From assembly GCA_036374135.1 (NCBI GenBank), contig DASUUK010000074.1:62001-126000 (forward strand): DNA of 64,000 nucleotides. Direction: 5' to 3'. This DNA is from Euzebyales bacterium (GTDB lineage: Bacteria; Actinomycetota; Nitriliruptoria; Euzebyales; JAHELV01). This document shows, piece after piece, positions 35,260 to 38,529 of this stretch; within the stretch, counting starts at the first letter, position 1; each line of letters begins with the position of its first letter. Made by a program: the position numbers and the translations under genes. The notes under the pieces were generated by a model. It did not search any database. It was not told where the DNA came from and saw only the letters and a program-made list of their open reading frames with translations.

Positions 35260-35349
35260 GGGTCGTACACCTGTCACTCGTCGTCTTCCAGCGCGGAGGG
35301 CCGACGCGAACGGCCCACCACACCACCGATCGCGGTCTACCATGACCGT

Positions 35350-36576
35350 ATGAGCGATCCATTCGGCGGCAACTTCGATCCGCGGATGTTCGAGCAGGTA
35401 CCACTGTTCCGTGAGCTCGCCAAGGTCATGTCGTGGACCGGTGGTCCCGTCAACTGGGATCTCGCGCTGCAGACCGCCTCGTCCGTCACCGCCTCCGGCG
35501 CGCCGCGAACCGACCGGGACGAGCGCGAGTTCGCCGACGCGGTGCACGTGGCCGAACTGTGGCTCGACGAGGCCACCGGGCTGCGTGCCGTCGCAGGCGC
35601 GGTACGCGCCTTGTCGCCACGCGAGTGGGTGACGGCCGCGGCCACCGACACCGGTCTCGGCCTGCTCGTCGAACCGCTCGCGGCCGGCATGGGCCACGCG
35701 CTGCACCAGAGCATGCCCGAGCAGCTGCGCGGGATGGAGGGTCAGCCGGGGTTCGCCGACGCGATCCGGCAATCGTTCGGCGCGATGGGCGCGATGATGT
35801 ACGGCGTCCAGATCGGCACGATCGCGGGCAACCTGTCCGGCCAGCTGCTGGGCGCCTACGACCTCGGTGTGCCCGTGATCGACGCGCGCACGGTCGCGAC
35901 CGTGGGTGACCACCACGAGTCGTTCGCCGCCGACTACGACGTCGAGCCGGCCGAGATGCGCTACTGGCTGGCCCTGCGCGAGGCGATGTTCAGACGCATG
36001 TGGGCCGGCGTCGCGTGGCTCCAGCCGCACCTCTCAGGACTGATCAGCGAGTTCGCCACGGCGGCCGAGTTCAATCCCGAGCGCCTGATGGACCAGCTCG
36101 GCGCCGGCGGTCTCGACCCGTCCAACCTGGAGTCGCTGTCCGACGCGCTGGGCGGCTCGGACTTCGTCGTCGAGCCGACGGCGGACCAGCAGCGGGTGCT
36201 CGGCCATCTGCAGGCACTGGTGGCGTTCGTGGAGGCCTACGCCGAGCTCGCGGTCCGGACGGCGGCCGGAACCCGCCTCGGTGCACTCACCCGCATCGAA
36301 GAGGCAATGCGCCGCCGGCGCGCGGCACAGGGACCCGGCGAGCAGACGCTGCACCAGCTGATCGGGCTCGACCTCGTGCCACGACAGATCCGCGACGCAC
36401 GCAGCTTCTGCGACGCCGTCATCGCCGCGCGGGGCCAGGTGGGCCTGGACCGCGTGTGGGACGACGCCACCCACCTGCCCACGACCGATGACTTCTCGGA
36501 TCCGAGCCGGTGGCTCGTGCGCATGGCGGCGGTCGAGCTGGAGGATCCGCGCGAGGACCCGCCGAGCACGGACTGA
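35350..36576 (+). CDS. DUF2342-type zinc metalloprotease-like protein without the metal site
   Basis: A 408-residue protein resembling the actinobacterial DUF2342 family (GPVNWDLALQTA, DEREFADAVHVAELWLDEATGL, FGAMGAMMYGVQIGTIAGNLSGQLLGAYDLGVP, ISEFATAAEFNPERLMDQL). The position where catalytic relatives carry HExxH reads LREAMFRRMW, so zinc-binding histidines are missing and protease activity is unlikely. ATG lies 6 bases after TACCAT (35338-35343), a leaderless layout. Confidence 0.75.
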   Translation: MSDPFGGNFDPRMFEQVPLFRELAKVMSWTGGPVNWDLALQTASSVTASGAPRTDRDEREFADAVHVAELWLDEATGLRAVAGAVRALSPREWVTAAATDTGLGLLVEPLAAGMGHALHQSMPEQLRGMEGQPGFADAIRQSFGAMGAMMYGVQIGTIAGNLSGQLLGAYDLGVPVIDARTVATVGDHHESFAADYDVEPAEMRYWLALREAMFRRMWAGVAWLQPHLSGLISEFATAAEFNPERLMDQLGAGGLDPSNLESLSDALGGSDFVVEPTADQQRVLGHLQALVAFVEAYAELAVRTAAGTRLGALTRIEEAMRRRRAAQGPGEQTLHQLIGLDLVPRQIRDARSFCDAVIAARGQVGLDRVWDDATHLPTTDDFSDPSRWLVRMAAVELEDPREDPPSTD

Positions 36577-37086
36577 CCGGCACCGGGCGCGGCGACCGCG
36601 ACCCACGCGTGCTCGCTTGTGTGCAACGTGCGCCGACCATCGACGCAGATCCCCGCCCACCCGCTCGCTCCGCTCGCCCCCGCCCCGGCAGGGTGCGGTC
36701 GCACCGGATGGCGGGCGCACGCCGTCACCAGCCGTGCGTACGGCGTTCACGCTGCGGTGTTCGATCCGGTCACCCGTCGGCCATTTCCGAAGTTTTTCGC
36801 GGCGGCGTCCAGGTGTCGGCGTTTTCGCTGCTCAGCACGGTTAACGGGTGTCGAACAACGAGACATCCACAGGTTGTCCACAGAAGTTGTCCCCAGCCCG
36901 CTGACGGTTTGCCCAGCGCCTCGAATCGAACATCCACAACCTGTGGACTGGCCTGTGGATAACCAGGTTGACGAACCGCGCATCCGCGCCGTACTGTCGT
37001 TGCCGTTCCATTCGGCCCTCGTGATGATCGGTCCGCAGCCCAAGGGGAAGGGGTTGCGAGCCAGTCTCACAGGGCCGTTTGGCATC
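36577..37086. other. 510-base gap with a DnaA-box cluster
   Basis: No gene is supported. The two flanking genes converge, so the gap needs no promoter. At 36863-36962 it holds six DnaA-box-like 9-mers in 100 bases, with a slightly more AT-rich stretch just before (about 36780-36800, with a run of T). A long plus-strand frame across the region is antisense to the sensor kinase and is not real. Confidence 0.55.
36863..36962. other. Cluster of six DnaA boxes, possible replication-origin region
   Basis: Boxes: ACATCCACA 36863-36871, TTGTCCACA 36874-36882 (perfect), TTGTCCCCA 36887-36895, ACATCCACA 36930-36938, TGTGGACTG 36942-36950 (minus) and TGTGGATAA 36954-36962 (perfect, minus). The first four point one way, the last two the other. 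This density is far above chance. No dnaA or dnaN gene lies nearby, so it may be oriC separated from dnaA or a DnaA-titrating locus. Confidence 0.55.
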
Positions 37087-38529
37087 TCACGTCGCGGCGT
37101 CGTCCACAGCTTCGGCACCGCCGTCATCCACAGCCGGGACGACGAGGCACACGCGGTTGCCCCGCCCCTCATGCAGCGAAGCGGTAGGGGGAACGTCATG
37201 ACCCCCGTCGAGCACGAGCCGGCCCCCCTCTGCCTCGATCAGTGCCCGTGCCAGCGGCAGCCCGCGGCCACCCCCGTCGGCGAGGTCGTCCACGGTCGGT
37301 CCCGGCCCCTCGTCGCCGACGCACAACCGCACCCACGTCCGTTCGCCCCGCCGGACGGGTTCGAGCCAGACGGTCACGTCGCCACGACCATGAGTGAGCG
37401 CGTTGTCGAGCAGGACCTGCAACGCCTGCCCGACCGCGGCCGGTCGCACGCGCACCAGCGGGACAGCGGTGCGGGTCACGCGCACCGCACGTCCGGCGGC
37501 ATCAGCGATCGTGCGCCACGCGTCGAGCCGCTCCATCGTCAGCGCCCGCAGGTCGACGACCGAGGCACGGACGCCAGCGTCGGCCAGCGCCAGCAACTCG
37601 TCGAGTGTGGCCTCGAGCCGGTCGACCTCGGCGTCCGCCGCAGCCAGGGAGGCGCTCGGGGTACCGAGCTCGGCCGCCAGCGCTTCGAGGTTGAGCCGCA
37701 GCGCAGTCAACGGTGTCCGCAGCTGGTGCGACGCGTCGGCCGACAGCGACGCGCTGCGCTCGAGCGCGCTCCGCAGCCGGGCCGCCGTCGCGTCGAGCGA
37801 CGCGGCGATGCGGTCGATCTCGGCGATGTCGCTACGCGCCGCGTGGCCCCCGAAGTCGCCCTCGCCCAGCCGGCGGGCGGAGTCGGCGACGGCCTCCAGG
37901 GGCCTGGCCAGCTGGCGTGCCCGCCACGATGCCAGCGCAGCACCCACGGTCAACGCCGTGCCGCCCAGCACGACGATCACCAGCCAGGCACTGCTCACGC
38001 GCGCCGCCGCCGCATCGGCCGGGGCGGCCACGCGGACGATCACCGGCGTGGCGTTGACCCGCGCGACGACAGCGACGACCAGGGCGTTGCCGATGCGCTC
38101 ACCCGCCGGCGAGCCGGGCCGTGTCGCACGGACCGGACGGTCGTCGAACACGGTGCCCGGCGCGACGCCGCTGGAGTCACGCACGGCCCGACCACCCAGA
38201 TCGAGGACGGTGACGCGGGCGTCGAGCACGCGGGCGACCATTCCGACGCGGCCCGTCAGCTCCGCCGGATCGTCGGCGACGTCGAGCACGTCGGCGAGCT
38301 GCTCGGCGCGCTGTGCCAGCGCCGTGATCTCCTGGCTGTAGACCCACTGGCGGGCGACCACCGCCAGTGGCAGTCCGAGCAGGAGCACCGCGACGCCCAC
38401 GGCGACGAGCATCAACCGGACGAGCCGGTCGCGGATGCCGCTGGCCTCACGTGCCGCGGTCGACGACGAACGCGAGGCCCGGACCCGATCGGGGGCCGCG
38501 TCGTCGCGCGGCGCGACGGCGCCCGTCAC
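37087..38529 (-). CDS. Sensor histidine kinase
   Basis: A 480-residue kinase with transmembrane helices near residues 39-60 (MLVAVGVAVLLLGLPLAVVA) and about 170-195, an extracytoplasmic domain between them, a HAMP linker, the phosphoacceptor motif SADASHQLRTPLTALRLNLE, an N box (LLDNALTHGRG) and a short G box (VGDEGPGPTV, GGRGLPLARALIEAEGG). GTG at 38529 overlaps the regulator's stop as GTGA. It pairs with the OmpR-type regulator; the trigger is unknown. Confidence 0.9.
   Translation of the reverse strand: MTGAVAPRDDAAPDRVRASRSSSTAAREASGIRDRLVRLMLVAVGVAVLLLGLPLAVVARQWVYSQEITALAQRAEQLADVLDVADDPAELTGRVGMVARVLDARVTVLDLGGRAVRDSSGVAPGTVFDDRPVRATRPGSPAGERIGNALVVAVVARVNATPVIVRVAAPADAAAARVSSAWLVIVVLGGTALTVGAALASWRARQLARPLEAVADSARRLGEGDFGGHAARSDIAEIDRIAASLDATAARLRSALERSASLSADASHQLRTPLTALRLNLEALAAELGTPSASLAAADAEVDRLEATLDELLALADAGVRASVVDLRALTMERLDAWRTIADAAGRAVRVTRTAVPLVRVRPAAVGQALQVLLDNALTHGRGDVTVWLEPVRRGERTWVRLCVGDEGPGPTVDDLADGGGRGLPLARALIEAEGGRLVLDGGHDVPPTASLHEGRGNRVCLVVPAVDDGGAEAVDDAAT

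Follow-up and report, generated by a model that had tools for sequence, protein, structure and literature searches.

The cluster of DnaA boxes in the gap between two convergent genes of this Euzebyales genome is probably the DnaA-binding control region of a promoter for an undescribed structured small RNA of about 76-85 nt, as judged from comparative sequence analysis. Comparative data support the array of boxes, the promoter, the structure of the RNA and the occurrence of one exact box triad both here and in the dnaA leader. Boxes, promoter and RNA recur together, on the 3' side of one and the same metalloprotease gene, throughout the class Nitriliruptoria, of which 66 genomes were compared (among them G012, Euzebya pacifica, the second contig of which corresponds to NZ_CP031166.1, with 100% identity over the 8 kb compared). 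If this interpretation is correct, a small RNA would be a means by which DnaA acts, and the coupling of gene expression and replication in actinobacteria could be tested in a compact system. The features of the element, in the coordinates of the window (the whole 64-kb stretch that was analysed), are as follows.

35344-36576, + strand: gene with a Zincin_2 domain (PF10103), the syntenic anchor 5' of the element
36863, + strand: box ACATCCACA, two mismatches
36874, + strand: box TTGTCCACA, no mismatch
36887, + strand: box TTGTCCCCA, one mismatch
36863-36895, + strand: upstream group formed by these three direct boxes, spacing 11 and 13
36930, + strand: box ACATCCACA, two mismatches
36942, - strand: box CAGTCCACA, two mismatches
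36954, - strand: box TTATCCACA, no mismatch
36930-36962: promoter-proximal triad formed by the boxes at 36930 (+), 36942 (-) and 36954 (-), TCCACA-N3-TGTGGA-N6-TGTGGA
36968-36973, + strand: -35 element TTGACG (TTGAC or TCGAC in most of 41 class loci)
36992-36997, + strand: -10 element TACTGT, spacer 18 (best fit: TAnnnT and a spacer of 17-19 in all 41 loci)
37008-37083, + strand: structured small RNA of about 76 nt with an outer helix P1, an inner hairpin P2 and the loop GGGGAAGGG, supported by the covariance models R1 and R2, covariation and fold z score
37087-38523, - strand: convergent histidine kinase gene, its 3' end 4 bases past the RNA
37100-37132, + strand: two additional boxes, at 37100 (TCGTCCACA) and 37124 (TCATCCACA), within the 3'-terminal part of the kinase gene

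The gap that holds the boxes thus extends from the end of the Zincin_2 gene (+ strand, 36576) to that of the kinase gene (- strand, 3' end at 37087), and it is convergent, as the first-pass annotation had stated. The further claim that promoter function is not needed in such a gap proved to be wrong, because the boxes are followed directly by a promoter and an RNA, both of them conserved; box clusters in convergent gaps can therefore conceal the promoters of RNA genes. The promoter, TTGACG-N18-TACTGT (36968-36997), starts five bases past the last box, and transcription would start near 37003-37006. It should be noted that the promoter assignment is based on the alignment and best fit of the 41 loci and not on a consensus scan: the scan of the element for consensus promoters and terminators yielded none, and the promoter was missed because its -10 element fits the E. 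coli consensus poorly. A U-rich terminator was not found at the element either. As is characteristic of DnaA-regulated promoters, the boxes are located at a fixed distance from the promoter, and the likeness to such promoters, for example the autoregulated dnaA promoter, extends to the pairing of boxes with gaps of 2-3 bp and to their location upstream of a sigma70-type promoter; what differs is the product, here a structured small RNA.

The evidence for the RNA comes from compensatory base changes in its helices. The covariation score was 0.409 for 24 order-level sequences, compared with 0.230 (sd 0.016) after shuffling and 0.09-0.14 with slid partners, and 0.529 for 42 class sequences, compared with 0.260 (sd 0.013) after shuffling. 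Double changes were observed in 9 of 17 helix pairs in the 24 order-level relatives (10 of 18 in another count) and in 16 of 19 helix pairs in the 42 class sequences. The helix variation passes through G-U pairs and thus places the RNA on the + strand. Folding of the window RNA (37003-37085) gave -46.7 kcal/mol and a z score of -4.9 (opposite strand, -39.3 kcal/mol and -4.8), and the z scores of the seven RNA-strand sequences folded ranged from -3.6 to -7.4. The sequences were picked by their GGGGAAGGG loop, so that the invariance of the loop is partly due to construction; sequences of group f4 also needed a P2 stem of at least five pairs beside the loop, while no stem criterion was applied to P1, nor to any of the 24 order-level sequences. 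Searches of Rfam 15 on either strand, with the window stretch and nine relatives, returned chance-level matches alone (E values of 2.2 and 1.3).

The RNA was found in 54 of the 66 Nitriliruptoria genomes, counting model matches and structure-checked matches in the neighbourhoods, and G004 is a weak 55th case; it was not found in G008, G020, G025, G029, G031, G040, G041, G056, G059, G063 and G064, several of which are incomplete. One copy per genome was found in the searches, mirror-strand echoes apart, and in the second large family of the class, too, the RNA was detected with a covariance model, again 3' of the metalloprotease gene. Elsewhere in the phylum it was detected with model R2 in none of 357 genomes (396 genomes searched, 39 of them of the class), an absence that applies to the sensitivity of R2 at E<=1e-4, which missed 9 of the 39 class genomes, several of them with the RNA. 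The gene 3' of the RNA varies, being the convergent kinase here and other genes on the same strand in groups f3 and f4; because the downstream gene differs among groups, the RNA behaves, on this comparison, as a separate RNA gene rather than a fixed leader. A PADLOC scan of the metalloprotease gene gave no match. Two genomes depart from the common arrangement: in G008 (L032) boxes and promoter are kept with no recognisable RNA, and G004 (L125, 5032-5121) has a weak RNA-like element without boxes.

The six boxes in 100 bases announced by the first-pass annotation, two perfect and four close, are all present when scored against TT(A/G)TCCACA, and two are indeed perfect; "close" has to be qualified, as one of the others has a single mismatch and three have two. 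The two perfect boxes, at 36874 and 36954, are the only ones in the 64-kb window, and the densest other 120-base stretch of the window contains three boxes with up to two mismatches, compared with six here. In the whole genome of 3.98 Mb the perfect TTRTCCACA motif occurs 18 times, exactly as often as a reversed control pattern, and thus single boxes are at chance level and the clustering alone is noteworthy. The lack of a genome-wide enrichment of perfect boxes would fit a chance cluster or functionless leftover sequence, but this explanation is refuted by the fact that position, geometry, promoter and RNA structure are conserved throughout the class, and we consider it practically dismissed.

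All 25 order-level loci listed, among them that of the window, have TCCACA boxes in the corresponding position 3' of the PF10103 gene; this count is without L013, truncated at the end of its contig, and without the box-free L034 from the low-GC genome G004. The class-wide comparison comprised 41 loci, each represented by a stretch of 210 bases. Together they contain 205 boxes, with 0.066 boxes expected per stretch (about 75 times background), and the box positions are rigid relative to the RNA. Left out of the 41 loci were L013 (contig end), L032 of G008 (no loop), L034 and L125 of G004 (no boxes), L033 and L124 of group f5 (none found), L117 (contig end, the RNA of its genome being on another contig), L035 and L036 (the first f4 loci, the genome of L036 being counted through L119) and the f4 genomes known from the model search alone; L031, in which part of the upstream stretch consists of N, was kept. 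Spacings of 11 and 12 bp, which correspond to gaps of 2-3 bp, are the commonest and account for 62 of the 164 adjacent pairs, and the same gap of 2-3 bp has been described as the preference of E. coli DnaA (PMC11317965).

Outside the gap, the two additional boxes in the coding sequence of the kinase gene (37100 and 37124) are conserved, at an unchanged distance, in all three of the genus's other genomes. Between and upstream of the boxes of L011-L030 there is a second motif, roughly CGTTTCCGCAGGTCAGCG, with two copies in many loci of f2 and f3; it is a possible binding site of another regulator.

The promoter-proximal triad has a defined geometry. Three boxes in the arrangement -> 12 <- 11/12 <- (a few with 13) were found in 34 of the 41 loci, allowing up to one mismatch per core, versus 0 of 820 shuffles, and in 19 loci all cores are exact. 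The spacing is 12/12 in f1 and most f3 loci and 12/11 in f4; the triad is absent from the three Euzebya-genus loci scored and from L107, L018, L021 and L031. Its end adjoins the -35 element in f1 and f3 (about five bases upstream, a distance measured in the window), and in f4 a single box keeps the place next to the -35 element, with the triad more than 100 bases further upstream.

In the source genome the exact triad is present at this site only, and a search of the 66 whole class genomes yielded 35 occurrences, spread over 34 genomes, and none of the reversed control. This signature is restricted almost exclusively to the RNA and to dnaA, as 27 occurrences lie at most 300 bases upstream of the RNA, seven in the dnaA leader and one elsewhere (G022:C262:5012-5037, L301, near a contig end). 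Five of the seven dnaA-leader triads immediately precede a dnaA match (G007, G010, G011, G013 and G026), and two lie upstream of a dnaA gene cut by a contig end (G045 and G029), where the start of DnaA or yidC/rnpA/yidD-like neighbours were read by eye and the family search for domain III of DnaA gave no match (dnaA-leader loci L282, L284-L286, L300 and L302). In three genomes with a plain start, the triad is located about 70-116 nt before the dnaA start. That one triad is common to the RNA promoter and to dnaA itself points to DnaA control.

It has to be considered that another TCCACA-recognising regulator might bind the boxes and have the RNA as its target. The f3 and f4 loci keep the TCCACA core, and their positions 1-2 are mostly not TT, which would fit such a protein. 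Taken together, however, the 205 N3TCCACA boxes of the 41 loci mostly have a pyrimidine at positions 1-2 and a purine at position 3, and lie between the dnaA-flanking boxes and the background; bases 1-3 lean towards the dnaA/oriC pattern, with a mean log-ratio of +0.37 compared with -0.77 for the background (p = 2e-17, a nominal value because related loci are not independent). The enrichment of pyrimidine or T at position 2 and the purine at position 3, as in dnaA-flanking boxes, the identical triad at the dnaA leader, the spacing of 11-12 bp and the occurrence of perfect boxes in f1 and f2 all argue against a different regulator, which is therefore improbable.

The first-pass annotation had also raised the possibility of a chromosomal origin separate from dnaA-dnaN, and was correct in that no dnaA gene is nearby: dnaA is absent from the window and is located on contig C35, whereas the element is on contig C74. 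The dnaA gene of the source genome has boxes of its own on both sides, and dnaA-flanking box clusters are present in the same genomes as the element, at distances between dnaA and the element of 0.65-1.5 Mb in G005, G012, G032 and G039. The source genome is a draft of 115 contigs, and therefore the skew was sampled in the relatives G005, G032 and G012. In G005 the sampled GC-skew minimum (2.16-2.40 Mb) coincides with dnaA (2.325 Mb), with the element at 0.998 Mb, and in G032 the minimum of the coding-strand bias is at dnaA (0.34 Mb), with the element at 0.99 Mb. Apart from the presence of a box cluster, the point in favour of a separate origin is E. pacifica, where the sampled GC skew has a dip around 1.1-1.25 Mb, at a distance of about 0.3 Mb from the element, but the coding-strand bias of this genome starts at dnaA, and after denser sampling its GC skew was found to run against the coding strand and to be confounded by C-rich coding strands. 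An AT-rich unwinding element was not evident between 36601 and 37325, A+T being at most 48% in any 50-base step, so that neither adjacency to dnaA/dnaN, nor a minimum of skew or strand bias, nor an unwinding element was found at the site. In the near-complete genomes that permit a test, the mapping of dnaA and the sampling of skew and strand bias place the origin at dnaA; the origin reading was thus rejected as very unlikely.

More serious is the possibility of a DARS- or datA-like site, in which the array would change the nucleotide state of DnaA or titrate DnaA, and the RNA gene would merely supply transcription that opens or resets the site; a datA-like titration site was the second suggestion of the first-pass annotation. 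DARS sites stimulate the release of ADP from DnaA, and DARS2 of E. coli also needs IHF and Fis sites; at datA, boxes 2 and 3 together with an IHF site promote the hydrolysis of ATP-DnaA. The topology of three boxes -> <- <-, common to DARS1 and DARS2 of E. coli, was found in 34 of the 41 loci, and in the window it is formed by the boxes at 36930, 36942 and 36954. The opposing boxes I and II are a hallmark of DARS in the literature (PMC8682772), and a role of read-through from a tRNA gene has been described for datA (PMC10950094). However, the cores of DARS1 (bioD-uvrB) and DARS2, as measured here, are spaced -> 14 <- 12 <-, whereas the spacing of the triad is 12/11-12, its inverted pair being 12 bp apart and thus 2 bp closer. 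In addition, unlike in DARS1 and DARS2, the triad is located upstream of a promoter, the array has a fixed place relative to this promoter, and the other main site of the exact triad is the dnaA leader, which is a promoter region. Such a site is therefore the less likely explanation. By analogy with the topology, a DARS-like effect of the triad on the nucleotide state of DnaA, in addition to or in place of promoter control, is conceivable.

For the preferred reading of DnaA control of an RNA promoter, the following mechanism can be proposed. DnaA would bind to the paired boxes, 11-12 bp apart, and by way of the triad directly upstream of the -35 element it would regulate the transcription of the RNA, the output of which would follow the level or the nucleotide state of DnaA and would thereby be coupled to the replication cycle. 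Activation is slightly favoured as the presumed direction of control because the boxes precede the -35 element without overlapping it; the triad of f1 and f3, about five bases upstream, would be in the right place for an activator that contacts RNA polymerase. Repression by looping with the upstream boxes is a possible alternative. The GGGGAAGGG loop is probably the working part of the RNA, which would act in trans via this loop on targets that would carry CCUUCCCC.

Several observations count against DnaA control of the RNA promoter. Many f3 and f4 boxes are without T at positions 1-2, which would be compatible with another TCCACA-binding protein; the exceptional genomes G008 and G004 separate boxes and RNA; and the triad is missing from seven of the 41 loci and displaced upstream in f4. 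Furthermore, the search for targets of the RNA in the dnaA loci and the window revealed CTTCCCC/CCTTCCC sites near dnaA without a consistent position in the leader, and thus no consistent target site. A more far-reaching version is put forward tentatively, as a conceivable scenario with the odds somewhat against it: the RNA would be a DnaA-gated, class-wide regulator, its synthesis would be activated or repressed by the initiator, it would in turn influence the cell cycle via the GGGGAAGGG loop, and the triad would perhaps be a DARS-like recharging site as well.

The element adds to the inventory of actinobacterial RNAs a conserved structured RNA without an Rfam family that is tied to the replication initiator by a sequence signature. 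The 6C RNA and other small RNAs of actinobacteria have a short stem-loop with a homopurine or homopyrimidine loop, a feature shared by the RNA described here, which, unlike them, has no match on either strand among the families of Rfam 15. Relative to this database the RNA is a new family; DnaA-controlled promoters are already known. The titles and the beginnings of abstracts of open-licence papers on DnaA and small RNAs, on actinobacterial DARS, on box clusters and on structured RNAs of the group contain no description of such an RNA, and in the main text of a review on DnaA as a transcription factor (PMC8203912) terms for small or noncoding RNAs do not appear.

A second DnaA-box cluster of the source genome is located just 3' of crgA (G000:C35:57859-57985, corresponding to L037 7859-7985), about 12 kb from dnaA, and also has paired boxes with a spacing of 11-12 bp. 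Since Rv0011c of Mycobacterium tuberculosis is presumably crgA, this cluster apparently corresponds to the M. tuberculosis DnaA site between Rv0010c and Rv0011c. Binding of DnaA to the latter has been shown (PMC7738170), and DnaA-box clusters near oriC have been reported for Streptomyces coelicolor and B. subtilis (PMC4585315); like the array described here, these are box clusters outside oriC, two of them actinobacterial, but by crgA synteny the counterpart of the M. tuberculosis site in the source genome is the different cluster on C35. Among the class and phylum loci compared (L250-L276), boxes 3' of crgA were observed in most of the class genomes tested, and also in several genomes of other actinobacteria (G072, G080, G087 and G094).
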